Shown here piece after piece: positions 518 through 44,949 of a stretch of DNA of 64,000 nucleotides (position 1 is its first letter; each line of letters opens with the position of its first letter). The position numbers and the translations under genes were made by a program. The notes below the pieces were generated by a model, which worked only from the letters and a program-made list of their open reading frames with translations, searched no databases and was not told where the DNA came from. This DNA is from Beroe forskalii (taxonomy: Eukaryota > Ctenophora > Nuda > Beroida > Beroidae): positions 186,001 through 250,000 of the forward strand of contig WFMF01000038.1 of the NCBI GenBank assembly GCA_011033025.1, in the 5' to 3' direction.

Positions 518-660
518 GCTGGGGCACAACCTGGGCACACCTCGGGCACAAGAAACACCTGGGGCACATTCGGGTACAACCATCTGGGGTACAACTCGGG
601 CACACTTGGGGCACATCTCGGACACAATTAATGAACAAAACATATCTGGGGCACAACCAC
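518..660. repeat. Degenerate minisatellite, core CTGGGGCACA
   Basis: About twelve imperfect copies of a 10-13 base motif (CTGGGGCACA, CTCGGGCACA and similar) follow each other. The cysteine/proline-rich open frames on either strand are by-products of the repeat. Confidence 0.75.
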
Positions 661-2474: not shown

Positions 2475-5400
2475 GTTTGAAAATCGACGACGATAATCAC
2501 AACATTTTCAAAAGGTTCTGAATACACTTCTCTCGTATCAGTTATTTCGTTTATTAAACTTCAACCTCTTGAGTTGAGAATCGAGATTATAGAACAGCGG
2601 AGTTCGGATGATTGCCGCATTAGATTTTCGCCCCACTCTAATAATACCTTGATTATAATCGCATACGCAGTTGACTGATGAATTGCGATCACTCAGTATC
2701 TGAATTAGTGAAGTTGAGTGACATAGTTGTTGAAATATAATATATTTCAACAACTATGTCACTCAACTTCACTATACAAATCAAATTCTCGAATTCGTTC
2801 CAGTATGAGGATGAAAGATGAGTTATAAAGTAGTTGATGAAATAATATTTAATTCAAATAATAACTAATCTCAATTCAGGAGCTAGGAGAGTTTTTCCTG
2901 GACGCCAAGTCGGAGAAAGAAACGCGGTACGCTTACGCGGGTCTCATCACGGCTCTCCTAGTTCCTGTGGCAGCTGTCATTAACCGGGAAGTGAACGTTC
3001 CTGTGTGTAGGAACTTCGTGGAGAAACTTTACCAACCCACGCTCCAGCTGTCCTCAAGACGATCCCATGCTGCGGTGAGACGATGATAGAGATTTAAATC
3101 CCCATTTTTTGGTTATTTTAATGCCCATTTTTAGGTTTATTTAATGCCGATTTCTAGGTTAATTTAATGCCCATTTCTAGGTTAATTTAATGCCCATTTC
3201 TAGGTTAATTTAATGCCCATTTTTAGGTTAATTTAATGCCCATTTCTAGGTTAATTTAATGCCCATTTCTAGGTTAATTTAATGCCCATTTTTAGGTTAA
3301 TTTAATGCCAACTTTTTTGGTTCATTTGAAGCTCATTAGTCATTATGATACTTAAATCTTATTTTAAAATTCATTCGACGGTCGTTTTTAAGTTCATTTG
3401 ACGGCCCGTTTCTAGGTTCATTTGAAGCTAAGCTTCAGGTTCATTCGAAGTTCATTTTTATGTTCATTCTATTTTTGGTATTATTTTGTTTGCGGTTTTA
3501 TCAACCTCTTAATTGATAGAACGATGCCTCAACGATGCTTTACCAGGCGACATCAGTTGGATGTTTCAAACGAAAACACCATAGACGCCTCAGTTAATGG
3601 CATGTTAATTACCTTAGGTGGTTTCATCGTTCCGCGTCGATCAAATGGATTGATCAAATGAAAAACGCACACAATACACAAACTGCAATCGCGCGCAATT
3701 GTGTGCGTTATTCATTTGATCAGTTCATTCGATCGACGCGGAACGATGCAGGTGCCTTATTCTCGTTAAAACGTTGTTGTCCTTTAGGGCCGGTTAAATA
3801 AGGGCCCATCATTTCCTTATTTCAGCACCTGTACGACTTGATAACCACTAATTTATTGCCTTCCAATTGTCAACACTTATTAACCATTTCATTGGCCCGT
3901 ATGCAATGTAAGTAACTAGCTAGTAGTTACTAGGTAGTGACTAGGTAGTGACTCACTAGCTAGTGGTTACTAGGTAGTGACTAGGTAGTGACTAGGTAGT
4001 GACTACTAGGTACTAGGTAGAGGCTCAATTCCAGCTAAATATACGGGTATTCAGTGTTGAAATTTATTGGATTTAGTTCTCCTTTTTTATTCTATTTTTT
4101 AAGAATACTTTCAGGTTAAAATCATTTTTCCTTCAATTCGAAAAATACAAATTAATTATTAAAAAATTCATAATTTATTCCAGCAGCGTCCAAAAATTAC
4201 AGTTTTACCGTCAAAAAATTCTAAAAATGGAACAAATCATTGGTAGAAAGCTCGTTTAAAATAATTTTCTTCTTGACGAAATTAGCAATTAAATATTCAA
4301 AAATTGGAGCAGCGTCAAAAATTACAGTTTTACCGCCAAAAAATCTAAAAAATAGCGTACAAATCATTTAGCTCGTTTAAAAATAATTTTTCTTCTTGAC
4401 GAGAGCAATTAAATATTCAAAAATTCATAATTAATTCTAGCAACGTCAGTTTTAACGACGATCATTGGTAGAAAGCTCGTTCAAAAATAATTTATTGACG
4501 AAAATTAGCAATTAAATATTCAAAAATTCATAATTAATTTAGCAGCGTCCAAAAATTACAATTTACCGTTAAAAATTATTTTTAAACGAGCTTTTAATTA
4601 TTTGCACCTATTTTTAGAATTTTTTGACGGTAAAACTGTAATTTAACGCCATAGAATTAATTATGAATTTTGAATATTAAATTGTTAATTTTCGTCAAGA
4701 AGAATAAATTATTTTTAAAAACGAACTTTCTACCAATGATTTCCAGGCCCTATTTTTAGAATTTTTTGACGGTAAAACTGTAATTTTTGGACGCTGCTAG
4801 AATTAATTATGAATTTTGAATATTCACTAATTTTCGTCAAGAAGAAAAATTATTTTGGACGAGCTTTCTACCAATGATTTGTACCTATTTTTAGAAATTT
4901 TTGACGGTAAAACTGTAATTTTGGACATGCTAGAATTAATTATGAATTTTTGAATATTTAATTGCTAATTTTCGTCAAGAAGAAAAATTATTTTTAAACG
5001 AGCTTTCTACCAATGATTTGTACCTATTTTTAGAATTTTTGACGGTAAAACTGTAATTTTTGGACGCTGCTAGAATTAATTATGAATTTTTGAATATTTA
5101 ATTGCTAATTTTCGTCAAGAAGAAAAAATTATTTTTAAACGAGCTTTCTACCAATGATTTGTACCTGTTTTTAGAATTTTTTGACGGTAAAACTGTAATT
5201 TTTGGACGCTGCTAGAATAAATTATGAATTTTTGAATATTAAATTACTAATTTTCGTCAAGAAGAAAAATTATTTTAAACGAGCTTTTCTACCAATGATT
5301 TGTACCTATTTTTAGAATTTTGACGGTAAAACTGTAATTTTGGACGCTGCTAGAATTAATTAGTTTTTTGAATATCTAATTGCTAATTTTCGTCAAGAAG

Positions 5401-8400
5401 AAAAAATTATTTTAGACGAGCTTTCTACCAATGATTTGTACCTATTTTTAGAAATTTTTGACGGTAAAACTGTAATTTTTGGACGCTGCTAGAATTAATT
5501 ATGAATTTTTGAATATTTAATTGCTAATTTTCGTCACGAAGGAAAAATTATTTTTAAATTTTACCAATGATTTGTACCTATTTTTAGAATTTTTTGACGG
5601 TAAAACTGTAATTTTTGGACGCTGCTAGAATTAATTATGAATTTTTGAATATTAAATTGCTAATTTTCGTCAAGAAGAATAAATTATTTTTAAACGAGCT
5701 TTCTACCAATGATTTGTATTTTATTTTTAGAATTTTTGACGGTAAACTGTAATTTTTGGACGCTGCTAGAATTAATTATGAATTTTGAATATTAAATTAA
5801 TTTTCGTCAAGAAGAAAAATCATTTTTAAAACGAGCTTTCTACCAATGATTTTACCTATTTTTAGAATTTTTTGACGGTAAAAACTGTAATTTTTGGACG
5901 CTAGAATTAATTATGAATTTTTGAATATCTAATTGCTAATTTTCGTCAAGAAGAAAAAATTATTTTTAAACGAGCTTTCTACCAATTATTTGTACCTATT
6001 TTTAGAATTTTTTGACGGTAAAACTGTAATTTTTGAACGCTGCTGGAATTAATTATGAATTTTTTAATAATTAATTTTTATTTTTCGAATTGAAGGAAAA
6101 ATGATTTTAACCTGAAAGTATTCTTAAAAAATAGAATTAAAAAAGTAGAACTAAATCCAATAAATTTCAACACTGAATACCCGTATATTTAGCTGGAATT
6201 GAGCCTCTACCTAGTACCTAGTAGTCACTACCTAGTCACTACCTAGTCACTACCTAGTAACCTCTAGCTAGTGAGTCACTACCTAGTCACTACCTAGTAA
6301 CGACTAGCTAGTTACTTACATTGCATACGGGCCATTATTTCAGCACGAGTAGGATTCGATAACCACTAATTAATTACCCCCTTAGTTAATTACCTAGTTA
6401 ATTACATGATTATTTCAGCACCTGTACGACTTGATAACCACTAATTTATTGCCTTCCAATTGTCAACACTTATTAACCATTTCATTATTTCAGCACGAGT
6501 AGGATTCGATAACCACTAATTAATTACCCCCTTAGTTAATTACCTAGTTAATTACATGATTATTTCAGCACCTGTACGACATGATAACCACTTATTAATT
6601 GCCTCCCACCCTAGTTAATTGCATGTTAACCATTTCCTTTCTCAGCACCTCTACGACATGATTACGATCCTGCTAAGCGTCTCCTCCAAGCAATTCTTCA
6701 TTACCAACTGGCCAATCTTCCTGCAGATGTGCATCAGCGGCCTCAAAGTGAGTAGCCAATGTGTGTCCACATGGATCTATAGATAAAAACGCGTAAAATG
6801 GTAGAAATACTGTACTTTCGACAGGAATCCGATGAAAAGTAGATTGCGCTCACTGTAAAATGCGCGCCTTAACAATCACTTCATCGATCGATGTATGTGC
6901 ACAAATTTGAGTAAAATGGTGTTAATATTGAGAAATTTGTTGATTTTCCTCATTCCCAAATTCATTACGCAAATAAAGTGAGTAGCATGATGTTATATTT
7001 ATGAAGGAAATTTACATGGTGAGAAATTGTGGGTTTTTTTAAAAGAAAATGCTAAATCAATTCCCCTCCTCAGACGCGCGACCTCTCCAAGGTGTCCGTT
7101 CAACTGTATCTACCGGCTGGTGTGGGTCTACGTGGTGCGGATTAAGTGCGAGGCAAATACAACCACCAACCAGAGACTCTCACAGATCATTGAGGCCATA
7201 TTCCCCAAAGGTTTGTGTGATTACCTGCACCTTGAACCCCGGAATTTCGAAAATCGTAATCCCGAAAACCCCTGTGTGAATTCCGATATCACGGAATCCG
7301 GAAAAACGTTATCCCTAAAATATCTGATAGGAATTCAGATTTTCGGGGGTTTGCAACACAGAATCCCGAGAAGCGGAATTCCCATACTATTCGGTTAAGT
7401 CCTATAATCAAAGCCTTAATCAAGCAATTGTGGATTATGGACATGTGTGGTTCTTTGTGTGTCTGTAGTTTTTGAACTCATTAACCATGATATTGATAAC
7501 TTCGCAAAACTCAAGGTTGTCTATCTAATGAATACTTAGGAAAATGCATGCACACCATAATCAATACTATTGATTGTGATGATATTAATTAATCATATAG
7601 ATTAATTAGTTAATTATGCGATATTCCGCACTTATCCAGTGGACGAGAGAGGGATTCCGTATCGTAGGGGGTTTGGAATCAAGGTCTCATACTCGGCTGA
7701 CTTGAAGAAGCCTGTCAATAAGAAACATTCTGACTCTAAGCACAAAAACTCACGTAAACATACATAGAAATGTCAATTTTTCTTGGATTGCCCTGATCGA
7801 ATGCCAACAATATCGATATTTAAAGTCAGTTAGTTTAGCTGGAAATTTTTAAGAACCTGTAATGCCTCTTTGTCAAAAATTGCCGCCTGTTATTCACCTT
7901 TTGGCTTCGTCACTCAAGAATCACTGATCAAGCATGCTGATGCGTATTGTGCGTAGCCTTGCAGAAATAATTTTGGATGAAAGTTTCAACTACTTCAATT
8001 TCCCGAACCTGACCCCATCATCTTTCTCTGGATAATAAACCCCTCACATCAAAACACCCTCGGCTGGCGGCTCACTGCCTGCCGACAACTGACCCCATCA
8101 TCTTTCTCTAGATTATAAACCCCTCACATCATAACACCCTCGGCTGGCGGCTCACTGCCTGCCGACACCAGACCCCATCATCTTTCTCTAGATTATAAAC
8201 CCCTCACATCATAACACCCTCGGCTGGCGACGAAAAGCACATCCTATTCGAAAGCTCTTATTTTCATTCAACTTACTCACTTTGCATCACTCATCAAAAT
8301 CACTGCATAACAGGGGCGTGTCGAAGTCCTACGTGCACGGCTTTTTCATGCGCGGCGTAAACGTGCGCGGCTTTTTCATGCGCAGCTCACTGCCTGCAAT

Positions 8401-11400
8401 AGCAGCCAGTGAGCCTCGCACGAATACGCGACGCATGAAAAGCCGCGCACGTAGGAGTTCGACACGCCACCGTTAAACTGAAGGCATCCCGTGGACCGTG
8501 GTAGAGAGAGAAAGTGCTCTGAGTGGACTCTGAGTTGGAATTGGTGGACCGCTTTGTATCCCCTGCACGGAATGTGATTGCCTGCATTGAGACGGCATGA
8601 GACTGTTCCCAGAATATGATTTATAACTATCCTTTTACCCCTCGCACCTCTATTTTACCCCCTGACACCCCCAGCTAACCAGGATCTCGGAACATCATCC
8701 CGCGTGAGGGAGTGCAGACTGCAGCCCCTCACACCCCCACTATTTAGCCCCTCTCACCCCCACTATTTACCCCCTTGCACCCCAACTGATTACCCCCTCA
8801 CACCCCCATCTTACCCCTCACACCCCCATCTTACCCCCTCACACCCCCATCTTACCCCTCACACCCCCATCTTACCCCTCACACCCCTATCTTACTCCCT
8901 CACACCCCCATTTACCCCCTCACACCCCATCTTACCCCCTCACACCACATCTTACCCCCTAACACCTCCATCTTACCACTCCATTCCCCCATTTACCCCC
9001 TCACACCCCCATGCAACCCCTCACACCCCTATCTTACTCCCTCAAACCCCCGTTTACCCCCTCACACCCCCATCTAACCCCTAACACCCCATCTTACCCC
9101 CTCACACCCCCATTTATCCCCTCACACCCCCACTATTTATTCTCTCGCACCCCCATTTACCCCTTCACACCCCCATTCAACCCCTCACACCCCACACTAT
9201 TTACCCCCTCACATCCCCATTCAACCCTTCACACCCTCATTTAACCCCTCACACGCCCATTTTACCCCCTGACACCCCAACTTACCAGGTTCTCGGAACA
9301 TCATCCCGCGGGAAGGGGTGCAGCCCCGGGACTTCATCCAGCTGATCCAGATAATCGCGTTGGAGAAGCTGGACTACGTCATGAAGGAAGTGGTGTACGA
9401 TCTGCTGTGCGTTAACAACCGGAAGATGATCACCTCCATTTACCCCGAGCGTATGTTGTCATGAGTTCTATATGATTTACTGATTATAATGTTAATTATA
9501 TTCTCTGCGACAAGGAGCATTGACAAGGTCATGGTAGGAAACGACCGGTTAACCGAACCGAAACCGAAATACCGGTTAACCGGGCGTTTTCAGCCAACCG
9601 AAACCGAAACCGCAACCGAATATTTTGATTTCGCAATTAACCGTTTAGGGAGATCGGCGTTTTTACCGAACCGAAACCGAAACCGTAACCGGATTTATTG
9701 AGAAATTGTAACCGGTCGTTTGGTAGGTCATGGAGTACTGAAATGATAACCCATATGGGTGCACATGCATTGATCGAAGTTGGGATTGATAAAGACGCAC
9801 AATTTGCAGTGCGCGCAATTTAATTGTCATAGGTATTCTTTCGTATTCTACACGTTTTATCGATCAATCCTTGTGTACACATACGGGAATAAGGTCTAGG
9901 TCTATGATTTATAGGTACCATCAAAGTTGAAAAGTTTTATGAATACTATTGCTAGCAGGGTCTGGTGACCTACGGTCACTGTAAAACATGAGCCGTCCTC
10001 TTTAAGTCTTTAGTGTCAGTATATCGTATTCTATACCAATTAATGATTGCCATCATATTCATAGCCGGCAACCACCTCTGAAAACTTCTATTTTCAGGAA
10101 TGAACATCGGTCTTAACTCCTACTGTCGGGAATGAACTTCGGTCTTAACTCCTAATTTCAGGAATGAACATAGGTCTGAACTCCTGTTTTCAGGAATGAA
10201 CATCGGTCTGAACTCCTACTGTCAGGAATGAACATAGGTCTGAACTCCTACTGTCAGGAATGAACATCGGTCTGAACTCCTATTTTCAGGAATGAACATC
10301 GATCTGAACTCCTAATTTCAGGAATGAACATAGGTCTGAACTTCTGTTTTACAGGAATGAACTTCTATTTTCAGGAATGAACATCGGTCTGAACGCGTTC
10401 CTCTCCATCGCTAACCACCTTGAGAAGAAGGAAGGGAACCCTCCGATGCCAGGAAGCAACTTCCCATACCCCTCCGGTAATTCACCTAATTGGTGTGCAC
10501 TTTAAGCTTTTAAGGGGGGGGGTCACCCCTCATGCTTGTACCAACATTTTGACGGTGGTCTTGAGTCCATAGTTCCAGCGTTTCCCATGTGAGGCCTCGG
10601 AGCAAAATGGCGTCCAAAAATTGAAATTTTACCAGCAGAAGATAGAGCTTAGCTTTTGCTTGCATTTGATTCGTCTCGACGAGATGATTATTTATTTTCG
10701 TGTATTTGTTTCTCAAAATTAGATGAAAAATGACGAAGCTATGGCCATGCGAAGTGTGCGCCAAAGTGGCAGTATGTTGGCCTATTTTGGGCCTAAAGAT
10801 GCCCAATGCCCATTATGGTTTTTTATAGGTACTAGACTGATGCAACAATTTCTTATGTTCTAAAGTAACTAAAAACACTAGCTGTAGCACCACATTAAAC
10901 CGAGGTTTTCTGCACAGAAAGAATATCAGGCTTGCCCTGGAGCTACCACAGTAGCCAAAAGAGGGGCTAAAAGGGGCAAAAAAGGGGCTTTGACTGGTGG
11001 GTAATGGGAATCGCCTTCTGGAGCTACTACAGTAGCCAAAAGAGGGGCTAAAAGGGGTGTTGACTGGTCGGTATCTCCTACTGGGATAGGAGAGCTGGCT
11101 GGTCCAAGGAGGTGATGCCCAGACTCATTCATCTCCACTTGGGCTAGGTTTTTTGTGTGTTTTTTTCTTCTCATCCCCCCCTTCTATTTCACCATTATTC
11201 ATTTATCAAACCATTAGATTTAAACCATTAGATCTCTAACTTATAATATGTGAATATGTGAATATATCTCTTCAGAAGTGAAAAAGAAGGTAACGTGTTG
11301 GAACACTTATATGACTAATATTCATATGTGATAGGCAGTACCTTCTGATAGTCATTGACTATTAGTAGGTACTGTCTACCATTAGATCTCTATTTTATAA

Positions 11401-14400
11401 TTCCTCAATTCTTCAGAAGTTTACAAGAAGAAGGTGACATGTTGGAGCACTAACTCCATCACTGACGAGATAGCGGAGTCCATTGGTGTAGGGGTGTATC
11501 TGATCGGGGTTAGGAAGGCGCTTGAGAGGATGCTCCACAACCTACAAATAGCCCTGGTGAGTCAAACAGGAAAATTTGAATAATGAGACAAGATAATTTA
11601 AGAGTAAATTTAAGGTGGAAAATTGCTCGTTTTTCGTATGTTTTCCTGCAGAAAATATAAATGAATCACTGATGTCTGATAAGTGCTGTAAACCATTCAT
11701 TGTGCTTTATTCCATGAAAGCATGAAGAGGAAGGAATTCTGGACTGGTGTGTGAGTGATGTGGAAAAAGTTTCTTGCTCTAACAAGCCCCAAATTGAATG
11801 ATCAATGAAGAATTTTATGAAATTTAATTTGATTTTGAACTTTTGAATTATAAATTATTTTGTCTGGTGATACCAGACCCGATGAGAAGTATTTTTTTTT
11901 CAAATTTTACATGAAATATATTTCACAATGTCATTCAGGTTAAAATATTCTGTCATTCCTACTTAACCAAAATAGCACAGAAAATATGAATCAAGTGCAA
12001 AATCTGGGCTAAACTCCCAACACAGCGTTAACCATTATTACAGGGAGGCCCGTCAAAAACATCAATCAATAAATAGGGTATAAAATAAATGATAACAATA
12101 ATAATAAATAATTACGTCATCTGATAAAATTAAATCACAAACTCACAAATACTATGGTTGTCAATTGTAATCATAGATTGGTATTTAAATTGTCACACTT
12201 AAAGTCCTAGGTCACAAAGAAATTACTTTTCTGCATCAAGACCATCATTTCGAAAAATACAAATTTGTTTATAATTTCTTGTATAAGGGTATTTTGCTCT
12301 TGCCTTACAACTTAATGACCATCTAGTTCACGGACTGAGTAAATTGAATTAATCGGGCCAGTCTAGATCTGCTTTCCAAAGGAAAGTTTTGAGTTGTGGA
12401 GATGCTTTTAACTTGCCTAATACTATAAGGGATTTTGTTCCATATAACCATTGTTCTATAGAAAAATGAATTCCTAAAATTATCACAATTGGGCCTTATG
12501 GTACATTTTAATCTTGAACAATCCTCTTGCTCACAATATCATGTGTACTTCTGGTGCTCCTTACTCAGTATGTTTAATGATATGAAAGCCTTCTGGTAAG
12601 GTGATGTTGATAAGAGAGTGTATGATTTTGAACATCATGATTAGGTCAGTTATGATAAATTTGTGTTTTATTGGAGGGATATTCAGGGTTTTCAGTTTAT
12701 TATAGTATTCAGTATCACAGATATGGTCATGGGGACGGCCTTCAATCCACTTAATGGCCCGCTTTTGGATGGCCTCAAAACCACTGAGCTGGTTGGAGCT
12801 GACTGGATGCCAAATGATGGAGCAATGCTCAAATAAAGACCTAACTAGTGTAAGGTAAAAGGTTCTTTTTGTCTTTTATCACAGGTGAAATGACAAATAC
12901 GTGTTACAAGTCCTAGACGGGAGCTTGCTTTAGATAAGAGACTGTTGCATTGTTCTGACCATAAAAGTCTAGAGTTTACTGTGACTCCCAGATCTACTTG
13001 AGATGCAACATAATCTATGTAAGTATTGTGAAGCTTGTACTGGAAGATTGTACATGGTAGATTATGGAGTATGTTTCTTTGGTTTGTTACAGCTAAAGCT
13101 TTACATTTCGAAGGATGAAATTTCATCTTGTTTAGTACAGACCAGTTATGAAGATTATCTATGTCAGCTTGTAGAGCAAAATGATCAGCCGATATCTCAA
13201 TTTCTCTCCAGATTTTTGTATCATCTGCATAAAGGGCGATGTTAGTTTCAGGACTTATACAGTCGAACATGTCATTAATAAATAAAACAAATAGCAGGGG
13301 ACCTAGAATAGAACCTTGGGGTACTCCTGAGTTGACTGGTAACTGAGTCGACAGTGATCCACCAATTACTACCTGCTGTTTCCTGTCCTTCAAATATGCA
13401 CGAATAAATCTGAGCATGGGTCCATTTATTCCCGCCCTGGCCAGGGCGGTAACCCCCCGCGGTAAAAAGAAAACTGGCCAGGGGTATAAGTTAGAGATTT
13501 GAGTGTCACAGGGTGAGATAATATATACATAATAATAATAATAATATCATGATAATTGGGACCCATCTTAAAACGATGAGATCTCAAGAACGGGAAATGG
13601 TAGAGCCATGATCGAGGTCACGTTTTGTTCATCTAAGATGGGATTGTGGATTAGGCTATGTGAGAAGGTCTGGTGACGTCATTATGATGCCATTATGACG
13701 TCATCAACTTAGCGAAATTTTATTTCTTTTTTAGCGAAAATAGGCCATTTTTGAGCGCATTTTGCACCAAGAAGGAAAGGAAATAGCTCTCTGATTTTTC
13801 AGAATGATTTTTAGCAAATTTAAAGAGCTTTCAGAAAATCATATGGATCATTGGGCTATCTCGATTTTTCATCGAGATATATGATTTTCGAAGGTACGGT
13901 GAAAAATCGATTTCCAAATTATAGGACAAAACTTAAACGAGTGAGATGTCAAGAACTGCGACTTATCTTGAGATGAGACCGGCCAAAGTATGTTGTGCTA
14001 AGGCGGAATTGTGGCTTAGGCTATATGGGAAGTTGGTTTGAGCCTATTTGGGTGCTGTGATGACGTCATCAAAATCGCGTAAAACCACTAAAATAGCGTA
14101 TTTTGCAATAGAACGCTATTTTGCGCTACTTTGGACATCTCTTACTAATAGAGTTTTCATCGGATTATGTTTTACTTTGATATGCTGCTTTTAGACCTTG
14201 AGATTTAGCTATAAAACGAGTTTCAGGGCGATCGGTTGAAGATTGATGTCGTGGGAGTCTTCTAAAAATTGAACTGCAAATTGATTGAAATTATGTTTAT
14301 GACGAAAATATGTACTGTGGTCCTATTCTGTGATACGATGGTGAACTGATGATAGTTTCTCCATGTCTCGCAGTGAATAGGGATGAGAAATATACGATGG

Positions 14401-17400
14401 ACTAGTGAAGCACGTGAGTTCACACGGACGTTTTGTAGAAATTAGGGGATTTGAAGAAATTGATATTTACACGGGATTTTCGACTTGATTATGTTAAAAT
14501 GAGTTTAAATATGACTAATGCACGTGAAATTAGATCTGGTTGCCTTATTTCAGCACGTGAGTACACAGGGACGTTTTGTAGAAATTAGGGGATTTGAAGA
14601 AATTAATATTTACACGGGATTTTCGACTTGCTTACGTTGAAATGAGTTCAAATACGACTAATGCACGTGAAATTAGATCTGGTTGCTATATTTCAGCACG
14701 TGAGTTCACGTGGACGATTTGTAGAAATTAAGAAATATATCAATTCTAGTAATTCCTAGCTAGAATAACATAGTTTTGGACTTCGTCAGGGTGAGTTATG
14801 TGGGTTAGATTTGCGTGTGGGCTAGTAACGTGGGTTCGGACTACGTGAGGGCAAGTAACGTGGGTCCAAACTGCCTTTGGGCAAGAAACATGGGTTCAAA
14901 CTACATACATCAGTCAAGATATCACCACCAAAACCGTTGGACGGTTGGTCTAGTAACCCCCCGCGGGTTTGGATGTGACAACGGAACCTGAAAAGAGACA
15001 AAATGGGCTGATCACATCCAAACCAGCGGGGGGTTACTAGACCAACCGTCCAACGGTTTTGGTGGTGATTTATTAAATTTATCCTTTAGTTTACGCAATA
15101 TCAAGTCATGTGAGACACTGTCAAAGGCTTTGGCAAAATCAAAGTAAATAATATCAGTTTTAGATTTATTGTTAAGGGATAACGAAATGTTGTGAATAAA
15201 TGGGACCATTTGAGTGGTACATGATTTCTCATTTATAAAACCATGCTGTCTTACATCTAGGAGGCGTTCGCATTCATTAAAAAGCTCTTTCTTTTATGCA
15301 ACGTTCGAAAATTTTCATTACTAAGGATGTCAAGGAGATTGGTCTGTAATTTTCTACTGAGCCCTTTTCATCTTTCTTATGCACTGGTACAACAGATGCA
15401 AGTTTCCAATCACATGGTATACAACCAGTGTTATAAGATATATTAAACATTATTGTAAGGGGCCGTGCTAGTGTGGCTGCACAATTTTTAAGGACCATAC
15501 CATGGATGCCATCTGGGCCTGCAGCTTTGCTAGGGTTAACATTTTTGAGTAAAAGGAATACATCAAATTCGTGAAATGTTAGTCCATTAAAACGGTCCAA
15601 GTCAGGTTGCATATCAATATCGATGTCATAGGAGCTGGCCTCGGAGAATTGGTCAGAAAAGAATGTGTTAAATAGGTTAGCTTGGTCATTAGGTTTTGTT
15701 CGATAGCAGTTTTTATACCAGACAGTTTCAGGTATGCGTGGCGCGTCATACTTCTCGACAGGGACTATCATCGATAGTCAATAATTATTAATTAACTATT
15801 AATTAATTAAAATTTATGAAAATTAATATAAATAATACGTTTCATTCCAGGGTCACATCCTCCAAACGAACCCAACGTATGCTAACAAGAACAGCGATGA
15901 GATCCTTGAGGGAGAGAGAAAACTCAAAGTGCAACTTCTGAAAACTTGTGTGGGGGCCATCCCTCGCATCATTCCTGAAGGCATGCAAAAGCAGTGCTTG
16001 TCTTGGTTCTGCTTTGTTGTTGTTTTTGTTTTTGTTGTTGTTTTGCTGTGTTGTTTTTGTTATTGTTGTTGATAACTGATTAAGAAACTTTTATGCTCAA
16101 AATTGTCAAAAATTAACAACTTATTAGACTACAATTAAAAAAAACTGAGTGTACTGATCATGATGAAACGATCGAATGAGAGAACGTATGGTTATAACAT
16201 AAATCTGTTCCCCCTTAAAGAAAAAAAAAATCATTCGTTTTCCCTATAGATCTGATCCCCCTTGAAGAACAAAATTTTCCTTCGTTTTTCCCTGTTTATC
16301 TTTGCATCATAGCATTTTTCATTGTCCTAGGCATGCAGAAGGCAAGTCTTGTGGAACTGATTTCTAAACTAACAATCCACATGGATAAGGACCTCTCCTG
16401 GACAGCGGTGGATACTCTCAAAAACATGATCAGGGAACTCCCCCGGTGGAGACTTAACGTTGTCGGGGGTGAGTTGTATTTCTTGTACACCATTGATTCT
16501 TTTTTATAATTTGAACTTCGTTTGAGCCGCAATTTTCAATTTCAATTGTACATTATGTAACGCGCGAAATATCCAATGTTTCATCCACCACTACGAAGTA
16601 TAATGAGTTATTTATCCGACTCTCCCCCCCCCTTCATAACTTATTTATCCGACCCCCCCCTGAGTTATTCAGCCGACTCTCCTGCCCCACCCCTCCCATA
16701 TTTTATTCAGCCAACTCCCTGCCCCCCCCTTCAAGAGTTAGGGAGCCGACTCTCCCCCCCTTCATGAGTTATTTATCCGACCCCCCCCCCCCCTGGAGTT
16801 ATTCAGCCGACTCTCCTGCCCCACCCCCTCCCATATTTTATTCAGCCAACTCCCCTGCCCCCCATGAGTAAGTGAGCCAACTTCCCTGTCCTCAGGATAT
16901 CGGACTCCCCTGCCCCCCCCCCTATGAGTTATATTCAACTGACTTCCCACCCCAGGATATCGGACTCCCACCCCCCTATGAGTTATATTCAACTGACTTC
17001 CCTGTCCCCAGGATATCGGACTCCCCCCCCCCATGAGTTATATTCAACTGACTCCCCTGCCCCAGGATATCGGACTCCCCCCTATGAGTTATATTCAACT
17101 GACTTCCCTGTCCCCAGGATATCGGACTCCCCTGCCCCCCCCCATGAGTTATATTCAACTGACTCCCTGTCCCCAGGATATCTGACTCCCCCCCCCCCCC
17201 CCCCCCCATGAGTTATATTCAACTGACTCCCCACCCCAGGATATCGGACTCCCCTGCCCCCCCCCATGAGTTATATTCAACTGACTCCCTGTCCCCAGGA
17301 TATCTGACTCCCCACCCCCCCCCACCATGAGTTATATTCAACTGACTCCCACCCCAGGATATCTGACTCCCCCCTGCCCCCCATGAGTTATATTCAACTG

Positions 17401-23400: not shown

Positions 23401-26400
23401 TTATGCAGAACGCCACACAACTACCCCTTCGTCATGGACAAGGCGCTCGTCCACCTTGCTACTTTCATCACGATATGGAGGGACAGACTGCAGCAGGATG
23501 GGGATGCTGAGAAGGTAAGGAGTAATTATACCATATAAGGAATAATTCACCTTGCTACTTTCATCACGATATGGAGGGACAGACTGCAGCAGGACGGGGA
23601 TGCTGAGAAGGTAAGGAGTAATTATACCATATAAGGAATAATTCACCTTGCTACCTTCATCACGATATGGAGGGACAGACTGCAGCAGGACGGGGATGCT
23701 GAGAAGGTAAGGAGTAATTATACCATATAAGGAATAATTCACCTTGCTACTTTCATCACCATCTGGAGGGACAGACTGCAGCAGGACGGGGATGCTGAGA
23801 AGGTAAGGAGTAATTATACCATATAAGGAATAATTCACCTTGCTACTTTCATCACGATATGGAGGACAGACTGCAGCAGGACGGGGATGCTGAGAAGGTA
23901 AGGAGTAATTATACCATATAAGGAATAATTCACCTTGCTACTTTCATCACGATATGGAGGGACAGACTGCAGCAGGACGGGGATGCTGAGAAGGTAAGGA
24001 GTAATATACCATATAAGGAATAATTCACCTTGCTACTTTCATCACGATATGGAGGGACAGACTGCAGCAGGATGGGGATGCTGAGAAGGTAAGGAGTAAT
24101 ATACCATATAAGGAATAATTCACCTCGCTACTTTCATCACGATATGGAGGGACAGACTGCAGCAGGATGGGGATGCTGAGAAGGTAAGGAGTAATTATAC
24201 CATATAAGGAATAATTCACCTCGCTACTTTCATCACGATATGGAGGGACAGACTGCAGCAGGACGGGGATGCTGAGAAGGTGGGAGTTCAAGTTGATGAT
24301 TATACCGTATAAGGAATAATTCAAATAAATCTGGGAGTGAATTGATGATTTTGGCGGTTATAGAAAAAACACAGCAACACAGATAAACCATATTTTGTTG
24401 ACAATAAGGGAATTTATCCTTTTTCAATTTTGTTTCCTTCTTCAAACTTATAGTATCCCCTGACTATGACGTCATATATCTCCAGGTGAACAAGGACCTG
24501 TTCCAAACAGACGAGAAGTTCTACCAGAACATAGCCCTGATTCAGAAGGTGGAGGGGATGGCCATTGTAATGCTGTCCTCCTGCTCCCAGAGGACCAAGA
24601 ACTATGCTAAACACTTACTAGTGGTATGATTAAACTCATGTTTAAACACTTACTAGTGGTATGATTAACAATATCACACAAATACAGCTTGTACGCTCAG
24701 TTAAATAATGTCCTTATAGACCACTCTTCTCTCCTAGACTCCTCCAATATCCTAGACCCTTTTTCAAGAACTACGCTAAACACTTACTAGTGGTATGATT
24801 AACAATATCACACAAATATAGCTTGTACGCTCAGTTAAATAATGTCCTTATAGACCACTCTTCTCTCTAGACTCCTCCAATATCCTAGACCCTTTTTCAA
24901 GAACTACGCTAAACACTTACTAGTGGTATGATTAACAATATCACACAAATATAGCTTGTACGCTCAGTTAAATAATGTCCTTATAGACCACTCTTCTCTC
25001 CCAGACTCCTCCAATATCCTAGACCCTTTTTCAAGAACTACGCTAAACACTTACTATAGTGGTATGATTAACAATATCACACAAATATAGCTTGTACGCT
25101 CAGTTAATAAATAATGTCCTTATAGACCACTCTTCTATCCTAGACTCCTCCAATATCCTAGACCCTTTTTCAAGAACTACGCTAAACACTTACTATAGTG
25201 GTATGATTAACAATATCACACAAATATAGCTTGTACGCTCAGTTAATAAATAATGTCCTTATAGACCACTCTTCTATCCTAGACTCCTCCAATATCCTAG
25301 ACCCTTTTTCAAGAACTACGCGAAACACCTCCTAGTGGTATGATTAACAATATCACACAAATATAGCTTGTACGCTCAGTTAATAAATAATGTCCTTATA
25401 GACCACTCTTCTCTCCTAGACTCCTCCAATATCCTAGACCCTTTTTCAAGAACTACGCGAAACACTTACTAGTGGTATGATTAACAATATCACACAAATA
25501 TAGCTTGTACGCTCAGTTAATAAATAATGTCATTATAGACCACTCTTCTCTCCTAGACTCCTCCAATATCCTAGACCCTTTTTCAAGAACTACGCTAAAC
25601 ATTTACTATAGTGGTGAGATTAAACTCCTGTCGTGATGTTATTTTAAACTCATTTTACTTCTTCCTTGCCAAGGTAATAAACACTTAAACACGGATCGAC
25701 TGATACTATATAATTTACCCCGTTTTAGGAGTATCAAAATTAGATTGTAATTTCTGTCCGGGCAGAGGTTTACACCCTTTTTGGTAGCATATGATATTTA
25801 CCTATTTACTTTGCGTGTCTTTTGAGCGCGCGGTTCAACATGTTTGTACGCCGCGCAAGCTTTAGCCGTGGACACGAAAGACGCGCAAACTGCAGTACAA
25901 ACTGTCATCGTAAGCTGATGCAGTGATGCATGCCTACTAAATAGTTAACCCCATCTCAGGAGGCATTTTCTCGCAATTTCCTGTAATCTCTTATATAATT
26001 TCGCAACCTCTGTTTTTCTGTTTGTCGTAACGGCGGAAACATCTTCGGAACGCGCGCGCATTACGATTTGTGCGGGTAACCATGGTGACACGTGCACGGA
26101 GAATTGCGCGCGCGCTCATTTCTGTTAATGGTGTTTTGATTACGTTGCGATCGGCGATCTCTAATAACTTTTGAACGGATCGGAGTTTTTTGATGCGGTA
26201 AGAAGTATTTGGTGAATTTGAAATTTGCGAACGAGGTGCTGCGTAGCAGCGCCGAGTGAGCTGTGTATTTGCAGGCCCAACGGGCCTGCTAGTCTTACTT
26301 ATAAAGTCGCATTTTCTGTATGTTCTCCGTACGTCACGCCCCATGGCAACGCGCGCGCAATGGGGGAAATTGCACGTGCAGATTAACTGCGCGCGCGATC

Positions 26401-29400
26401 ATTTCTGTTTAATGCGGTTTTGATTTCGGTGCTTCATAACTTTTGATATGATTGGAATTTTTTATGGGGTAAAAAGTATTTAGTTGGTTTGAATTTTGCG
26501 AACGAGGTGCTGCGTAGCAGCGCCGAGTGAGTTGTGTATTTGCAGGCCCAACGGGCCTGCTAGTAAGTTATAATTTACCTTTTTATTTAAACTATCCTAT
26601 ACAATAATTTACCCCACATATCTCAGGAGGCCCAAGTGCTGTTTGACGTGATGGTGCGGCACTTTAGACAGAGGGGGACCTACTTTGAGGATCCTGTGTG
26701 GACTAAAATAGAGGAGATTAGCGAGGGCGTTATCATGAAGTGCTTGCAGGTTAGGGCGGCTCAAGATGCATTTTATATGAAATGATTTCCGACAGTGATT
26801 ATTTGCTGACCAAGGGATGAAATAATCAATAACCACCAAAAATAATAGCTCTCAATATATTTCCATCTTGTCCGGCGTCAAAAACGACATTAGAAGAGGT
26901 TAAGAAAATGAAAAATCGAGAATCTGGACCGTATACGATGTATTTTTTTTAATCAAATTGTCTCTCTTCTAGGTTCAGCATCAAACGAAGGTTCCTAAAC
27001 CTAACGAGATTAAGACCCTCAAGCAGTTCCTAGATGATGAGTGTACCCACAGCGACATCAACTGCAAGGAGGACGGCACTAGGTAAGGAGACGAGGCGTT
27101 TTTTCTCCTTTTTTAATCCTCAGGATCCCAAAATCACTATCAGATCTTTCAGAATTGTCTCACTTCTTATTTTCCTGTACTAAAGTACTAACCTCCTCCT
27201 CAGTAAAGTATTAACCTCCTCCTCAGTAAAGTACTGAAGTTTATACCTTCTCCTCAGATCCCCTCTCTCCATGTGCCTCTACAGGAGAGCCACATGGAGA
27301 GAGGAGAGAGCCTCTCCCAATGTTTCATTCCCCACTTTCATAGCTACTCCGACATGGATGATTGCTTTTTTTTTTCTTTTTTTTTGTTACATCGAGCAAA
27401 CGCGCCCCCGAAGTCCTGGTGGACTTTTTGGCAAGGTGCTTGGTTATGGAATACTCTCCTTGTATTGTCAAACGTTGTTTTCCCCAGCGAGGGGGTCAGA
27501 CAACGTCGGACAATCTTTGTACCCCCTTTTATTTCCCAATTTGTTTCCCCATTCCCCCGTTGGTTCCCCCATATTGAAATACTTCATAATTTAGGTTTAT
27601 AAATTTAAGAACATTTGCTGGTCTAAGAGTTTATTCTATTACGATACACAAGCGTCTAAGCGCCCATTACATCTATTATATGTATCCCTACAGTCAGCAA
27701 AAATTCCACCCATTACATCGGTTCCCTTCCCTTTTCTTGCGTCTTGCGCCCAGTGTTGACTTTTAGGAGTGTTATCCAATGCCAGAAAGGAGAACCAATT
27801 ACCTGGAGAGTCGCCACACTCTCTAGACTGGCAGACAGTCTCTGATTACGATGAAGCTGGAACAAGAGAAAGAGTTCCTGGTCGAAGAGGAAGCTGTTAA
27901 CATACCAATACTAGGAAAACCAACGTAAAAAGGCATTTATTAGGTGATAGTGATGATCATATAATAATGAGGAGGCCTATCATGACAGTGCACTAATTAT
28001 AAAAGAATGCCTTAATAAGTTCAGGACATAATCTAAATAAACCTCCACTACTTCAATCTATTTCAAGATGGGCCGCGAACTTACGAGAAACCCAGGGCAT
28101 TATGAGAATTCTAGGAGAAATAGGCACCTAACGTAGCAATAAAGCTCAAATCAATAACAGACGACCAAAACTGTGTTGATTTGTGTTTTTGTTTGTGTTT
28201 TGATTTGTGTTTTTGTTTTTTTTCCACTGTATTTCCTTAATTTCTTTTTGGTATACTCGTTAAAACTGGTAGTCTTAGCTATCAGTGCGATTTTTCTTCT
28301 TCGAGGCTTCAATTGTAAACTGAGGTCAATGCTTCTATGATGTCTAAGAGAATCAATCTGGTCCTTCGTTGTTTTTTGTTTTGTTTCATTTCAAAGTTCC
28401 AAGACCGACCGTAGCATATTTTCTCAAGCTACTGTGGGTGCCCATTCGTCATTCATGTTCAGGCACATCCAATGGGAGACTACCAGTATAGTTTTCTGTC
28501 GTGTTATTATTATAAATGTTTTTCGAATAATCTTCTGACTTAATTGGAAATATTACCAATTTGACTTGGCTAGTCGATTGAAAAAGATAAGTAGGCAAAG
28601 CTTGTCGAAGTTTAGAATATCATCACCAATGCAACCCCTGCATATCTTTATCAAGAAGTTGCTGAAAAAAAACGCTATAAATGCCCAATATAGTTAATCA
28701 ATGAAATACTGCGCCATTGCGCCCATCATGAGAAGTATCGGAACAGATTAATGAGCAATGCTAGTTAAAGATAAATTGGCAAAACTAGTCGGGCAAAAGG
28801 CTGCACCTGCATATATCTTCATCATAAGGAATATTATGAATATGCAAAATGTAGTATCAGGTGTGGTGAAATCTACAGAAAAGTGAAACATGATCATATG
28901 GTAGTTATTTCTAACTTAATTCAGCACAATACAGGTGGTACCTTGCAGTGCATTTTCATCTTATCTTCGCTTCAAATTTAGAACGTAATTTAGCGAAATA
29001 AATTTCAACAAAGACTGATAATGTAAATTGATTGGAGTTGTGCGTTAAGTCTAATTATTAAAATTGGGATATTCATGGTAGGCTTTCCATTATCGGTAAC
29101 AAATTTTTTATCTAGATAAACCGATAATTATTTCGGTTTTATCTAGATAAAATTTTTATCTAGATAAAATCTATCAGTTTTTAGAAACTTTTTTGCCACT
29201 GTCAATCTGGTTACTTTCGCTAAATATACGTCAGTCTGATATCATTGTGATTGTTGATACACCCGACTGGCGTTAGTGAAAAGTGAGACTGTTGTTACTT
29301 GTTATTGATAACACTATGACCAAAAATTGTCAATGATACGTAATAGTGGTGCTTCCGATTGGTATCAGATTTCATTCAGGTTGATATCATTGATTTGTCA

Positions 29401-32400
29401 GTGTTCGACTGATGCAATTTATCGGTCAGAACGGTATTAGGAATACTATACAGCAGACTAGGTCAGAGATGCGCCCGAAAGGTATCAATTATGCATCAGA
29501 TTGGTGTCAGTGATAAGTCAGACTGGTGTCAGTGATAAGTCACACTGCCAGACTGGTGTCATTGATACGGCAGACTGGTGTCATTGATACGGCAGACTGG
29601 TGTCAGTGATACGGCAGACAGGTGCCAGTGATACGGCAGACTGGTGTCCGTGATACGGCAGACTGGTGTCAGTGATAAGTCACATTGCCAGACTGGTGTC
29701 ATTGATACGGCAGACTGGTGTCAGTGATACGGCAGACAGGTGTCAGTGATACGGCAGACTGGTGTCAGTGATACGGCAGACTGGTGTCAGTGATAAGTCA
29801 GACTGGTGTCAGTGATACGGCAGACAGGTGTCAGTGATACGGCAGACTGGTGTCCGTGATACGGCAGACTGGTGTCAGTGATAAGTCACATTGCCAGACT
29901 GGTGTCATTGATACGGCAGACTGGTGTCAGTGATAAGTCAGACTGGTGTCTGTGATACGGCAGACAGGTGTCAGTGATACGGCAGACTGGTGTCAGTGAT
30001 ACGGCAGATTGGTGTCAGTGATACGGCAGACTGGTGTCAGTGATAAATCAGACTGGTGTCAGTGATACGGCAGACTGGTGTCAGTGATACTGCAGAGTGG
30101 TTTCAGTCATCTATAGCAGATTGTTAGTGTCTGTAATACGTCAGGCCAATGTTAAATATCTGAGGTGTGTCTGTGACACGACAGAATAGTGTCACTGGTG
30201 CCAGATTTGTGTCGGTATCAGTTATCCATTAAACAAGTGTCAGTGATACATCAGGATAGTTTCAACTATACATCAAATAGGTGTCTGTGGTATGTCAGAC
30301 TGGTGTTGGTGATTGTTCAGAAAGGTACCAGTGACATGCTAGACTGGTGGCAGTGATCCTTCAGACTGGTGAAAGTTGAAACCAGTCCAATTTTACAAGC
30401 ACTTTTCAACGCCAGCTATTTTGCTATTTCATCTAGATAAAAGTAATTTTTATCTAGATAAACCGATAATTTATTTTGACGAATTATCGGAGATAATTAT
30501 CGGTTTCGATTATCGGACTGGAAAGCCTAATTCATGGTATGCAGCAGCATTAATATTATGAATGACAGAGCTATTTGAGATAAAGTACCCTTCCAGTTCC
30601 CTACTAACCTACCCGTACGCCCATAATCATGTAGAGTGGAGGATTGTTGAAGAGATAATTAAAATTAACCTGCCAAAAAGAAATACTGCACCAATTTGCC
30701 CATCGTGAAGAGTATTCTTAATAAGGTTAAGATAATAATAATTGCCATAAGTAGTCATGTTATGATACTGTAACAGTGCACCTAAAATGGTGATGATTTA
30801 AATACAAGATACTTTAAACGTAGCGAGCCATGAGATATAGTGTTGCGTCGATGCGATAATCTTGAGGCTAAAGAATTATGGCTGATTATAAAAAACAGCT
30901 AGTAAAATGCGCTTATACACCTGTTATGGGAGGATTGTACTGGATTAAAAGAAATTAACTATCCTGAGTGAGAGTCTAAAACACATAGGAATGAATAGCT
31001 TTGGTTGTTCGGACAAGAAAAATGAATGAATAGACGATTTTACTGCCTGATGTAATGAATACTTTTTAGTCTATTAGCTTATTCCTAATAAGTAGGAAGA
31101 ACTAGTGTGAATTAATGCACCCGTCATGAAAATCTAATAAATATATTATTATAAAGATAGACAAAACGAGTCAACAAATGATACTTCGGCACCTAGTGGC
31201 AAAAAGTGGATACTCTAGATCAAGTAGAAAACTGGTATGTTAACAGGAAAGCAGGAAGGAGTTGATTCGTTACTACTCGTTGTACTTGTCATCTGAAACC
31301 GTCCTCAAATTTGATTGTACCCAGTTGAGTTGTAAGTGGTAAAATACCATAAAATATCTAACGCTGTATTTGAAGTGTTAGGTAATTGCGTGCATGGCAC
31401 AAATTAGACGAATCTTCATCTCTGCTAACCCATCCCAATTTTATTTATTCTGCTAATCGAATGAAGACGATCGATTGACTAATTACATTCGATTAACCGA
31501 TTTGACGATTTGTTATACATTTTCTTAAAGGTTTAAAGGTCTCTTCCTTCGGAAAACTAATATTTGCTTCCTCAGATCCCCGCTGTCCATGTGGCTGGTA
31601 ATCCTCTTCGGGATGCTCCACGAGCTGGTGATCAAGAAGAAGTGTGTATCAGCCCTCTACCAAGCGTACCTTATCGGCAGTGCCAGGTAAGAAGAAGTGT
31701 GTATCAGCACTCTACCAAGCGTACCTTATCGGCAGTGCCAGGTAAGAAGAAGTGTGTCTCAGCACTCTACCAAGCGTACCTTATCGGCAGTGCCAGGTTT
31801 GTGAGGATGTATTAATTCGTCCGTTCGGCGTTCATTGCTTCCGCTTACTGCGTCCGTTCATTTTGCCCGTTTATTTTGCCATTACATGATGCTTGCACTA
31901 TAATATTCGAATCTTGCGCGCTTATCAGGCATTTATGGCGCCAAACACGCGTGAAACCTGCGCCAAACCGGCCCAGCGATTCCTTCGTTTGACTAAAATA
32001 CCCCCTCCTTTCCCACGTGCCGTGGATAATATAACCTCCCCATTCCCAGGTTCCAGAAGCTGCACCCGCTGATAGAAGCGAGTATTTCCGACCTGGGCGC
32101 CATTTCCCGTAACCCCATTGGACGGAGTCGCCGAGTGGTAGACAAGTGCGATCTGTGCCTGTGGCGCAACCTCATGATCCTCTGTTGCAAGACGGTCCGG
32201 TGCCCTCCCAAGTTCAACAAGAATACCGATTTGATGGCGCCGGTGGCGCAATACGCCAGGTGAGTACAGATCTGATGGCGCCGGTGGCGCAATATGCCAG
32301 GTGAGTACAGATCTGATGGCACCGGTGGCGCAATACGCCAGGTGAGTACAGATCTGTTGGCACCGGTGGCGAAATACGCCAGGTGAGTACTGATCTGATG

Positions 32401-35400
32401 GCACCGGTGGCGCAATACGCCAGGTGAGTACAGATCTGTTGGCACCGGTGGCGCAATACGCCAGGTGAGTACAGATCTGTTTGTTGGCGCTAGTGGCTTA
32501 TTACGCCAGGTGAGTACAGATCTGTTGGCTCCGGTGGCGCAATACGCCAGGTGAGTACTGATCTGATGGCACCGGTGGCGCAATACGCCAGGTGAGTACA
32601 GATCTGTTGGCACCGGTGGCGCAATACACCAGGTGAGTACAGATCTGTTGGCACCGGTGGCGCAATACGCCACGTGAGTACTGATCTGTTGGCGCAATAC
32701 GCCAGGTGAGTGCTGATCTGTTGGCACCGGTGGCGCAATACGCCAGGTGAGTACAGATCTGTTGGCACCGGTGGCGCAATACGCCAGGTGAGTACAGATC
32801 TGTTGGCACCGGTGGCGCAATACGCCAGGTGAGTACAGATCTGTTGGCTCCGGTTGCTCAATATGCCATTTGGAAACCAATCTGTTGGTACCTTTCAATC
32901 TTTCACACTCAGCTGACGACGATAACCTCATGATTTTCGAAAGCTCCTGATTATAATCTAGGTTTTTGTTGACTAGCACAATTTGAATAAACCGACATTA
33001 AATGTCGGTTTATACAGTTATTGTGCCAAATTTTTGCACAATAACTGTTCGTATATCAGTTATGAATTAACTACAACCTATAACAAAATATTTCCTTGTG
33101 TTCCAGTAACCCGGGGATGAAGGACCCTCCCACGGTTCTCAGTGCTGTGGAGCTGTATAAGAGGGTGGTGATGCTGCTCAAGAACGATAACGTGGACGTG
33201 CAGGAGATATCCGTAACGGCGCTAGGCGCTTCCAACCCCGACGTTTTCAGGTTTACAGAATTTTAGCGCATGGTTTTTGTTACCAAATTGATTGAAGTAG
33301 AGGAAAAGACCCCATATTGTGACCCCATATTGTTCTCCAGTATCCCTGTGAAATGTGACCCTATATTGTCCTCCAGTATCCCTTTGAACTGTGACCCTAT
33401 ATTGTCCCCCAGTATCCTGGTGACCCTATATTGTCCCCCAGTATCCTGGTGAAGTGTAACCATATATTGTCCCCCAGCATCCTGGTGAACTGTGACCCTA
33501 TATTGTCCCCCAGTATCCTGGTGACCCTATATTGTCCCCCAGTATCCTTGTTAATTATATTGTGAAAGATCCTTGACCCTCTATATTGTCCCCTCAGTAT
33601 CTTGGTGAACTGTGACCCTAAATTGTCCCCCAGTATCCTGGTGAACTGCGTTGACGAGCACCTGGGAGACACTCTGTCTCGGAGTGAGACAGTACGGAGA
33701 CGGAGACGTCGAGAGCACCTCCGACTTCAGGTAACTGTTTCAAACTATTCTGCTTTAATAGGGAGCCCGACTTTTCACGTTACGACATTCGTGCTAGCGA
33801 CACTTAATCTCTCTTTCCTGACCCTATTATTAACCAACGCCTCAATTCTACCCCAGACTAAAAGTTTAACGGACATATGTTTACATGAGCTATAGAGCAC
33901 CTTTTTTGCCCGGTTTTTGCGTAAGGAAAACATTTCCTTGCGTTCCAAAAAGGCTGAATAATATCCTACAACGAGACTTGTCTCAGGTGTCGCGAGTGTA
34001 CGAGCTGTGTGCTGATAACGGGTGTTTTAAGAAGGACAGCATCGGAGACATGGGCGACACCATAGAGTCCATCACTCACTACATCGACCACACCAAGTAA
34101 TGTGCTTAGTGGGAATTTCTGTCGAAAGTACAGGATATTAACGCGTTTTTTATCGATCCATTGTGCAAACACGTATGGTTAAGAACTTCTAATCCATACG
34201 TGTGCACACTGCACATGGATCGATTAAAATGCGTAAACAACTGCACTTTCGACAGAAATTCGATGAAAAGTAAATTGCACGCACTGTAAAATGCGCGTCC
34301 TTATCATATTTCCTTCATCGATCGATGCATTAATTGCACCTGCATATTATGGGTTACTAGCAATACTAATAAGTTCTGGAACTAAGTACGAGACAGTGTG
34401 GTTTGGGTTACCAGCAATACGCATACATCTATGGCAGTTCAGCATGATGAACTTTCCACCTTGTGCTCAAGAAGTAGAAATGCTGGTGGAGCTACCTAAA
34501 TTCCAAATAACTTGGTTCCAAAATGATTCAAAATTGATTAAAATTGATTTTAAATCGATTCCTATTGATTCGAATTGATTCCAAATCGATTTGAATTAAT
34601 TCCAAATTTATTCCAAATTGAAAGCAAATTGATTGCAATAAGAAAAAATTATTACTTCATCAGGAGTATATGCGAGGAAGAGAAAGACTCGACAATCCTC
34701 ACAGATTTGAAGTTCCACTTCTGCGAGTTCATCCGGAAAATGATCGTGTCGTCAGATTCTTGCGGGGAACTCAACTTTGAGAGCTTAGCTCCAGGTGAGT
34801 GGGTACTGGAGTTGGTTGGAGTCAGTCAGACACGGAGTCAGACAGACACGGAGTTGGTTGGAGTCAGTCAGATCGCTCGAAAAGGAGTGCTCGATAAATT
34901 TGGATATCATCAAGAAACTTAGAGAGCAAGTTAAAACGTTCAATGATACGATAAACTTTTTAAAATCGCTCGAAAATCGTGCTCGATAAATTTGGAAATC
35001 AAGAAATATTGAATTGAGTTTAAAACGTTTTGATTTCGATAAACTTTTTAAAATCAGGAGCTTTCGAAAATCGTGTGATTATCGTCGTCAGCTGGAAATC
35101 AAGAAATATTGAATTGAGTTTGAAATTTTGATTTTGCAGTACGGAGAATGGAGTTGTTCCGGTTGTTCCGGGGTTGGTGCCACTACGACGCTGAGTCGTT
35201 GTCAGAGAAGATAGACAAGAGCAAGCTCCTCAACAAGAGTACCAGGTATCTAACTTACTGTTCCTTGACACCACTTTCCTTGACACCACTTTCCTTGACA
35301 CCACTTTCCTTGACACCACTTTCTTTGACAAACAGAGCACCAGGTATCTGGCAATGTTCTCCGTGACACCACTTTCATTGGCATCGCTTTCATTGGCATC

Positions 35401-36247: not shown

Positions 36248-36616
36248 TAGAAATATGTTGGGATTATCGGTAAATTATATTCATCAAACTCGCCCGGGAA
36301 TATTTCATGAGTAAAGGTAAATTTATGTCAAAAGAAAATTTATGTCAAATTATGTCAAAAGAAAATATTTCAGAATCAAAACCTGACAAATTCAACAATT
36401 AAATCAAACTAGTGTAAGAATTGCATTGTATTCAACTAGCTGATTGGTGTTGACCCCTCATATTCATCCATACCAACCCTCCAAAAATCTCAGAATCTCT
36501 CTAAAGTCTAAATCTCCGTTGGTGGGTTGTTCAAGACTATTATTGGCACGACTTTGGTGTCTCACTTAATCCCACTTTAAGAACAAGGTTGACAGTTTCC
36601 TAGCTTCTAAGCGTTT

Positions 36617-44849: not shown

Positions 44850-44949
44850 NNNNNNNNNNNNNNNNNNNNNNNNNNNNNNNNNNNNNNNNNNNNNNNNNNN
44901 NNNNNNNNNNNNNNNNNNNNNNNNNNNNNNNNNNNNNNNNNNNNNNNNN
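44850..44949. other. Assembly gap, 100 N
   Basis: Exactly 100 N, the conventional size for a gap of unknown length. Any statement across it is uncertain. Confidence 0.98.

Follow-up and report, generated by a model that had tools for sequence, protein, structure and literature searches.

Minisatellite-like tandem repeats that lie over exon-intron boundaries are known from amphioxus, where they have been named 'mirages' and described in the Adh3, globin, troponin C (TnC) and PGBD5 genes (PMC3087553, PMC3902484). Units of 10–72 bp are given for Adh3 and, among the globins, an acceptor-side mirage of 3 or 6 units in two haplotypes of BflGb6 and a donor-side mirage in BflGb9 (PMC3087553), with further examples in PGBD5 and troponin C (PMC3902484). 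Genes with mirages are reported to make normal mRNA despite the repeats, and somatic instability is reported for Adh3. Mirages have also been put forward, in the paper on the globins, as a source of new introns (PMC3087553). Related processes have been described elsewhere: in potato RdRp, a duplication across an existing intron-exon boundary made an intron (PMC4974935), and in Daphnia, according to a review that also covers other models, introns with short direct repeats were gained by double-strand break repair (PMC3443670). Here we describe tandem arrays built from exon edges in the FRY gene of the ctenophore Beroe forskalii and in several other genes of the same assembly (216 Mb in 1134 contigs). 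The FRY locus lies in a stretch of 64,000 nucleotides (hereafter the window) at positions 186001–250000 of contig WFMF01000038.1 (C447). These arrays are likely a further case of the mirage kind in another animal; literature searches of titles and the starts of abstracts yielded no report that we recognised of mirages outside lancelets, which is no proof of absence.

The plus-strand gene at 2880–36122 of the window is the N-terminal half of FRY. Human FRY matches it in order and exon by exon, and the eight Pfam MOR2-PAG1_N matches listed all fall in the locus, seven on the exons given below or their second copy and the eighth on an upstream exon at ~2307–2480. Eighteen exons, one with a GC donor, were fixed with our own spliced aligner and by eye; the upstream exon and any exons between 19.7 and 31.5 kb are outside the list. 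The last edge was set one base short, so its donor is left out of the 35 junctions counted. For the C-terminal half of FRY, no match above 27 bits was found between 96 and 360 kb of C447.

2880–3074, 6646–6747, 7074–7210, 9289–9450, 10375–10476, 11417–11556, plus strand: FRY exons
15851–15980, 16331–16468, 17981–18108, 18981–19118, 19560–19682, 31576–31686, plus strand: FRY exons, continued
32050–32259, 33107–33250, 33634–33730, 33987–34096, 34664–34794, 36009–36122, plus strand: FRY exons, continued

A segment of the gene is duplicated within 16180–27000, with the copies ~5 kb apart, and the second copy of exon 17981–18108 has a small deletion that shifts its frame.

Tandem arrays were called with Tandem Repeats Finder (TRF), and the splice sites inside their units were read from the sequence. 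An array was scored as anchored when a 22-mer over a junction agreed with the array consensus at 16 or more positions, a check with a false-positive rate of 0.0003 (9414 pairs with arrays of other genes). Seven FRY arrays are anchored in this sense. When any local copy of a junction is accepted, 8 of the 35 FRY junctions are repeated (five acceptors and three donors), the addition being the exon at 9289, and a ninth case lies at the second copy of exon 18981–19118. The units measure 32 to 150 bp in 3 to ~19 copies, and arrays cover 39% of the gene. The repeats at exon edges are as follows:

6333–6668, plus strand: acceptor array, 75-bp unit with a 150-bp higher order, holding TTTCAG and ~17 bases of the exon starting at 6646; 3 of 3 motif copies keep AG
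8652–9324, plus strand: two-copy duplication of the acceptor and ~35 bases of exon 9289–9450 (66-column alignment), enclosing a 20-bp C-rich array at 8725–9286
10083–10394, plus strand: acceptor array, 32-bp unit in ~9 copies, holding TTTTCAG and ~20 bases of the exon starting at 10375; 8 of 9 motif copies keep AG
16883–17990, plus strand: acceptor array, C-rich unit of ~59 bp in ~19 copies, holding CCCCAG and ~10 bases of the exon starting at 17981
18046–18778, plus strand: donor array, 96-bp unit in 7.7 copies, holding the last 63 bases of the exon ending at 18108 and 33 intron bases
21813–24281, plus strand: second copy of the arrays at 16883–17990 and 18046–18778, inside the duplicated segment
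24599–25620, plus strand: donor array, 137-bp unit in ~7 copies, after the second copy of exon 18981–19118 (donor ~24623)
31634–31798, plus strand: donor array, 55-bp unit in 3 copies, holding the last ~50 bases of the exon ending at 31686 and the 5' splice site
32224–32892, plus strand: donor array, 41-bp unit in 16 copies, holding the last ~33 bases of the exon ending at 32259 and GTGAGTACA
33318–33650, plus strand: acceptor array, 36-bp unit with 9 motif copies, holding CCCCCAG and ~14 bases of the exon starting at 33634

The original prediction had named eleven FRY junctions as carrying such units, and with its exon numbers placed on coordinates by inference, nine of them hold: the seven arrays of the main gene copy (acceptors at 6646, 10375, 17981 and 33634; donors at 18108, 31686 and 32259), the two-copy duplication at exon 5, and its exon 11', which is the donor at ~24623 in the diverged second segment copy. 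The array at this last donor is present in the second copy only, the first copy of the donor being without one. At exon 5 (start 9289) the junction does have a copy ~607 bases upstream, but the 20-bp C-rich tandem unit between the two copies contains no exon bases. The other two junctions could not be confirmed. For exon 7, neither 11417 nor 15851 has an array or any local copy, and a candidate array of two 47-bp copies at 16199–16293 ends before the exon at 16331. For exon 12, the repeat at 27181–27235 reproduces an acceptor-like CTCAG end without exon bases; we did not recognise the stretch after it as a FRY exon, and its first bases resemble, by eye, the exon start at 31576. As the original prediction claimed, the arrays are independent in sequence, except that those at 21.8–24.3 kb are a duplicate of those at 16.6–18.8 kb.

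The pattern extends beyond FRY. In pieces of seven further genes, aligned with human proteins, exon-edge repeats are again found, so that six of the eight genes (FRY, VWA8, DRP1, VCP, XPO1 and myosin) have at least one; there are none in CLTC (10 junctions) or GALNT (16 junctions). Two CLTC arrays begin 5–15 bases from a donor and contain too few exon bases, and were therefore scored as not anchored. Taking the eight genes together, each of the 14 repeated junctions has its copies on the intron side, acceptor copies only to the left and donor copies only to the right, while exon centres are seldom repeated (3 of 64). The cases outside FRY, and an array in the neighbouring gene that touches no splice junction, are:

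VCP, last-exon donor: 60-bp unit, 7 motif copies
DRP1, donor: 175-bp unit, 3.3 copies
VWA8, donors: 92-bp unit, 12.8 copies; 62-bp unit, 4.1 copies; a 31-bp array in one of two copies of the gene
XPO1, acceptor: unit of ~35 bp, 2 copies
myosin, acceptor: unit of ~57 bp, 2–3 copies
36616–41799 of the window, minus strand: stop-codon array, 76-bp unit in ~68 copies (5.2 kb), the unit being the last codons and stop of an EamA gene

This minus-strand gene adjoining FRY belongs to the EamA transporter family by a Pfam scan of six pieces, and we take it to be SLC35G-like. The frame read directly and the one giving the best fit to the family are one base slip apart, and in either the coding sequence ends within the first unit; 67 of the 68 motif copies keep the TA of TAG. 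In VWA8, of which there are two inverted copies (either alleles or paralogs; flanking matches 87–93% identical), the 62-bp donor array runs to 4.1 units (255 bp) in one copy, whereas in the other it has 3.1 units followed by 6.6 units of 135 bp (~1.2 kb).

The most probable explanation, in our view, is that the arrays are minisatellites born of local tandem duplication, a process that would be highly active in this genome, and that they survive where splicing can remove the extra copies. Coding bases would be struck as readily as non-coding ones. A duplication within an exon would break the reading frame and presumably be purged; where the segment straddled an exon edge, the extra copies would come to lie on the intron side, or after the stop codon. 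The outermost original site would then stay in use, the copies would be removed by splicing or remain untranslated, and nothing would hinder the array from growing and shrinking, perhaps by unequal exchange or slippage. We favour this explanation because the copies are intron-side throughout and exon centres rarely repeated, because the rate at which junctions are repeated is near that of introns once copies are collapsed, and because the same pattern is seen at a stop codon. It is further favoured because the lengths of the units take no account of the reading frame: of 12 splice-edge units, 4 have a length divisible by 3 (the stop-codon array and the repeats of exon 5, myosin, XPO1 and, at 31 bp, VWA8 being set aside). 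Moreover, in neither the donor arrays nor the acceptor array at 10375 are splice dinucleotides clearly better conserved than other unit positions. The difference in VWA8 array lengths between copies speaks for it too, as does composition: long arrays favour GC-rich units (weight 2.6 for units of at least 52% GC), the 66 long arrays in 264 kb around the window being GC-rich relative to their own flanks (P=0.003), and exons are also GC-rich.

Whether junctions are hit more often than chance was judged against three nulls: raw coverage, a background with copies collapsed, and long TRF arrays (score of at least 150 and at least 2.5 copies) placed uniformly or with GC weighting. By raw coverage, junctions are repeated less often than intron points (14 of 161 vs. 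25.3 expected; in FRY 8 of 35, with 44% of intron points covered and 15 of 35 expected), because the copies themselves inflate intron length. As array growth has this effect, raw coverage was dropped as a fair null in favour of the collapsed ones. With copies collapsed, 14 of 161 junctions are repeated vs. 8.6 expected (P=0.056); the figures are 6 of 126 vs. 3.9 without FRY (P=0.20) and 8 of 35 vs. 4.7 for FRY alone. Because FRY was selected for this very appearance, the P values that it yields are post hoc. At low TRF thresholds (score 50), 10 of 68 arrays are anchored vs. 5.0 (P=0.032), and 3 of 28 vs. 2.3 without FRY (P=0.41), with the VCP edge uncorrected. TRF alone misses cases of two or three copies, such as those in XPO1 and myosin.

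These counts depend on manually curated exon edges. Very small exons, exons without AG or GT and seemingly spurious ones were removed from the aligner output for the pieces XPO1 (1), CLTCa (6), CLTCa5 (1), DRP1 (8), GALNT (3), MYO (2), VWA8p5 (6), VWA8p (1) and VWA8m (2). Edges in VCP and VWA8p5 were altered by eye, the last-exon edge of VWA8m was misplaced in the intron comparison described below, and the last-exon donor of VWA8p was uncounted. The second copies of CLTC and VWA8 are outside the junction and array counts, the first CLTC piece (CLTCa5, 4 junctions) entered only the long-array and TRF tests, and the 31-bp VWA8 array, a TRF array in the second copy only, is uncounted. Matches to human CLTC, POLR2B, XPO1 and VCP are mostly 50–90% identical, with CLTC exons mostly at 62–79%. 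The joined exons of VCP and XPO1 have stops in every frame (4 in the best VCP frame, 8 in the best XPO1 frame), so that some edges must be wrong or frames slipped, and single edges deserve less trust.

Several observations weigh against an explanation by duplication and survival alone. Among long arrays, 11 of 27 are anchored vs. 2.94 expected under uniform placement and 3.43 under GC weighting (P=0.00025 and 0.00087). The pieces XPO1, MYO and VWA8p5 have introns nearly free of repeats, yet one repeated junction each (expected 0.00, 0.23 and 0.18). Two acceptor arrays keep AG in every copy (40 of 40 and 9 of 9), against averages of 0.83 and 0.87 for the other unit positions; this is a weak point, as the motif used to select copies lay next to the AG. 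The first two would be expected if splice junctions were preferred birthplaces of arrays, through their sequence or an event at the time of transcription, an alternative that we consider rather unlikely. FRY supplies 7 of the 11 anchored long arrays (1.3–1.6 expected in FRY), and without it the preference is not significant, either for long arrays (4 vs. 1.60 and 1.86; P=0.079 and 0.12) or for junctions with copies collapsed. The array over a stop codon and the GC bias of the units also argue against junctions as such, although GC weighting lifts the expected number of anchored arrays only from 2.9 to 3.4. The original prediction, which held that ordinary satellites have no reason to be anchored on splice junctions, thus over-read the pattern: the excess at junctions is ~1.6-fold for any copy and 3–4-fold for long arrays, and neither is significant without FRY. 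The genome-wide comparison of arrays with junctions that it proposed was run here on the pieces of the eight genes only. A special anchoring of arrays on splice junctions is not established; junctions may be preferred about two- to threefold. That the arrays are assembly artefacts seems very improbable. In favour of artefacts, inverted copies lie on single contigs (C784 for CLTC; C447 for VWA8 and for the start of the window), an array adjoins one of two 100-N gaps within the 264 kb, and some exons seem to contain frame slips; but copies within arrays differ from one another, the same VWA8 donor array has different lengths in the two inverted copies, and the pattern recurs on contigs C447, C636, C405 and C580.

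The original prediction had likened the arrays to intron gain by tandem duplication, the Rogers model, in which duplicated exon segments bearing AGGT turn into introns. AG|GT is indeed held in several donor units, and potato (PMC4974935) and amphioxus (PMC3087553) offer precedents. We compared 50 bases around the donor and the acceptor in 78 introns, including those of the second VWA8 copy and some between non-neighbouring exons where one had been dropped, with 6006 mismatched pairs. Three of the 78 show similarity in register between their two ends. A 346-bp GALNT intron has 13 identical bases in register and a 171-bp XPO1 intron has 12, vs. a maximum of 11 among mismatched pairs, and the third is in FRY:

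15981–16330, plus strand: GC-AG intron, candidate gain by duplication (in-register gapped alignment, score 26, p=0.0002)

All three are candidates for introns gained by insertion or duplication. None of them carries an exon-edge array, however, and they thus do not turn the arrays into a case of intron gain; the introns that do bear arrays lack donor-side sequence repeated in register at their own acceptor. By eye the GALNT and XPO1 introns do not start like their downstream exons, so that insertion with short direct repeats explains them no less well. Arrays as intron gain in progress thus appear improbable to us. The GALNT intron (C447:281555–281900, plus strand) sits in the conserved DxHxEC stretch and is flanked in register by an exact direct repeat that copies 13 bases of the exon end; it looks like an insertion turned intron. 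At the XPO1 intron (L034, reverse strand, 1764–1934) the flanking direct repeat is likewise exact and in register and copies 12 bases of the exon end.

Other features of the region were seen along the way. At 3915–6312 of the window, an 11/40-bp array and its inverted counterpart lie on either side of an array of eleven 136-bp units, an arrangement reminiscent of a mobile element whose terminal inverted repeats enclose a satellite. A low-complexity array of GTCGA type at 44606–46207 adjoins a 100-N assembly gap, and ~5 kb of an 18-bp satellite occupy 56389–61353. FRY exon 7074–7210 and the EamA gene at 41780–41840 have apparent one-base frame slips in conserved exons, perhaps assembly errors. 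The inverted copies of CLTC at C784:28583–66030, of VWA8 at C447:110900–138000, and of the window start at C447:156831–157426 vs. window 1–600 (best pieces ~86–98% identical) are either fold-back duplications or the result of the assembly having joined two haplotypes head to head. In DRP1 (reverse complement of C447:170001–180000, 3345–3505) a repeat of 1.9 84-bp units contains a tRNA-like GAATCGAACCCGGGATC stretch and is perhaps a SINE.

Repeats of the mirage type in six of eight sampled genes can be tied, under tandem duplication with survival at coding edges, to a plain cause: duplication filtered by selection. Going further, coding-edge amplification might be an ongoing, genome-wide source of mutation, scattering reserve splice sites through introns and occasionally yielding new introns, the last part being suggested because three introns have in-register end repeats; this is a doubtful extension. 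A genome rich in exon-edge copies, with two diverged copies of some genes, would be well suited to following whether these repeats turn into alternative splice sites or new introns.

Compared with the Rogers model and the potato example, the segments duplicated in Beroe likewise carry splice signals, but the extra copies lie within existing introns. The break-repair gains of Daphnia are matched by the in-register repeats of 13 bases in GALNT and 12 in XPO1 at both intron ends, although here only these two introns are concerned and they are separate from the exon-edge arrays. The likeness to amphioxus mirages is closer. Unlike mirages, several arrays may occur in one Beroe gene, and one array lies on a stop codon. 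As in mirages, the units span the splice site and the exon edge on the donor or the acceptor side, AG or GT survives in many of the copies, and copy number varies, between two haplotypes in amphioxus and between two gene copies here.

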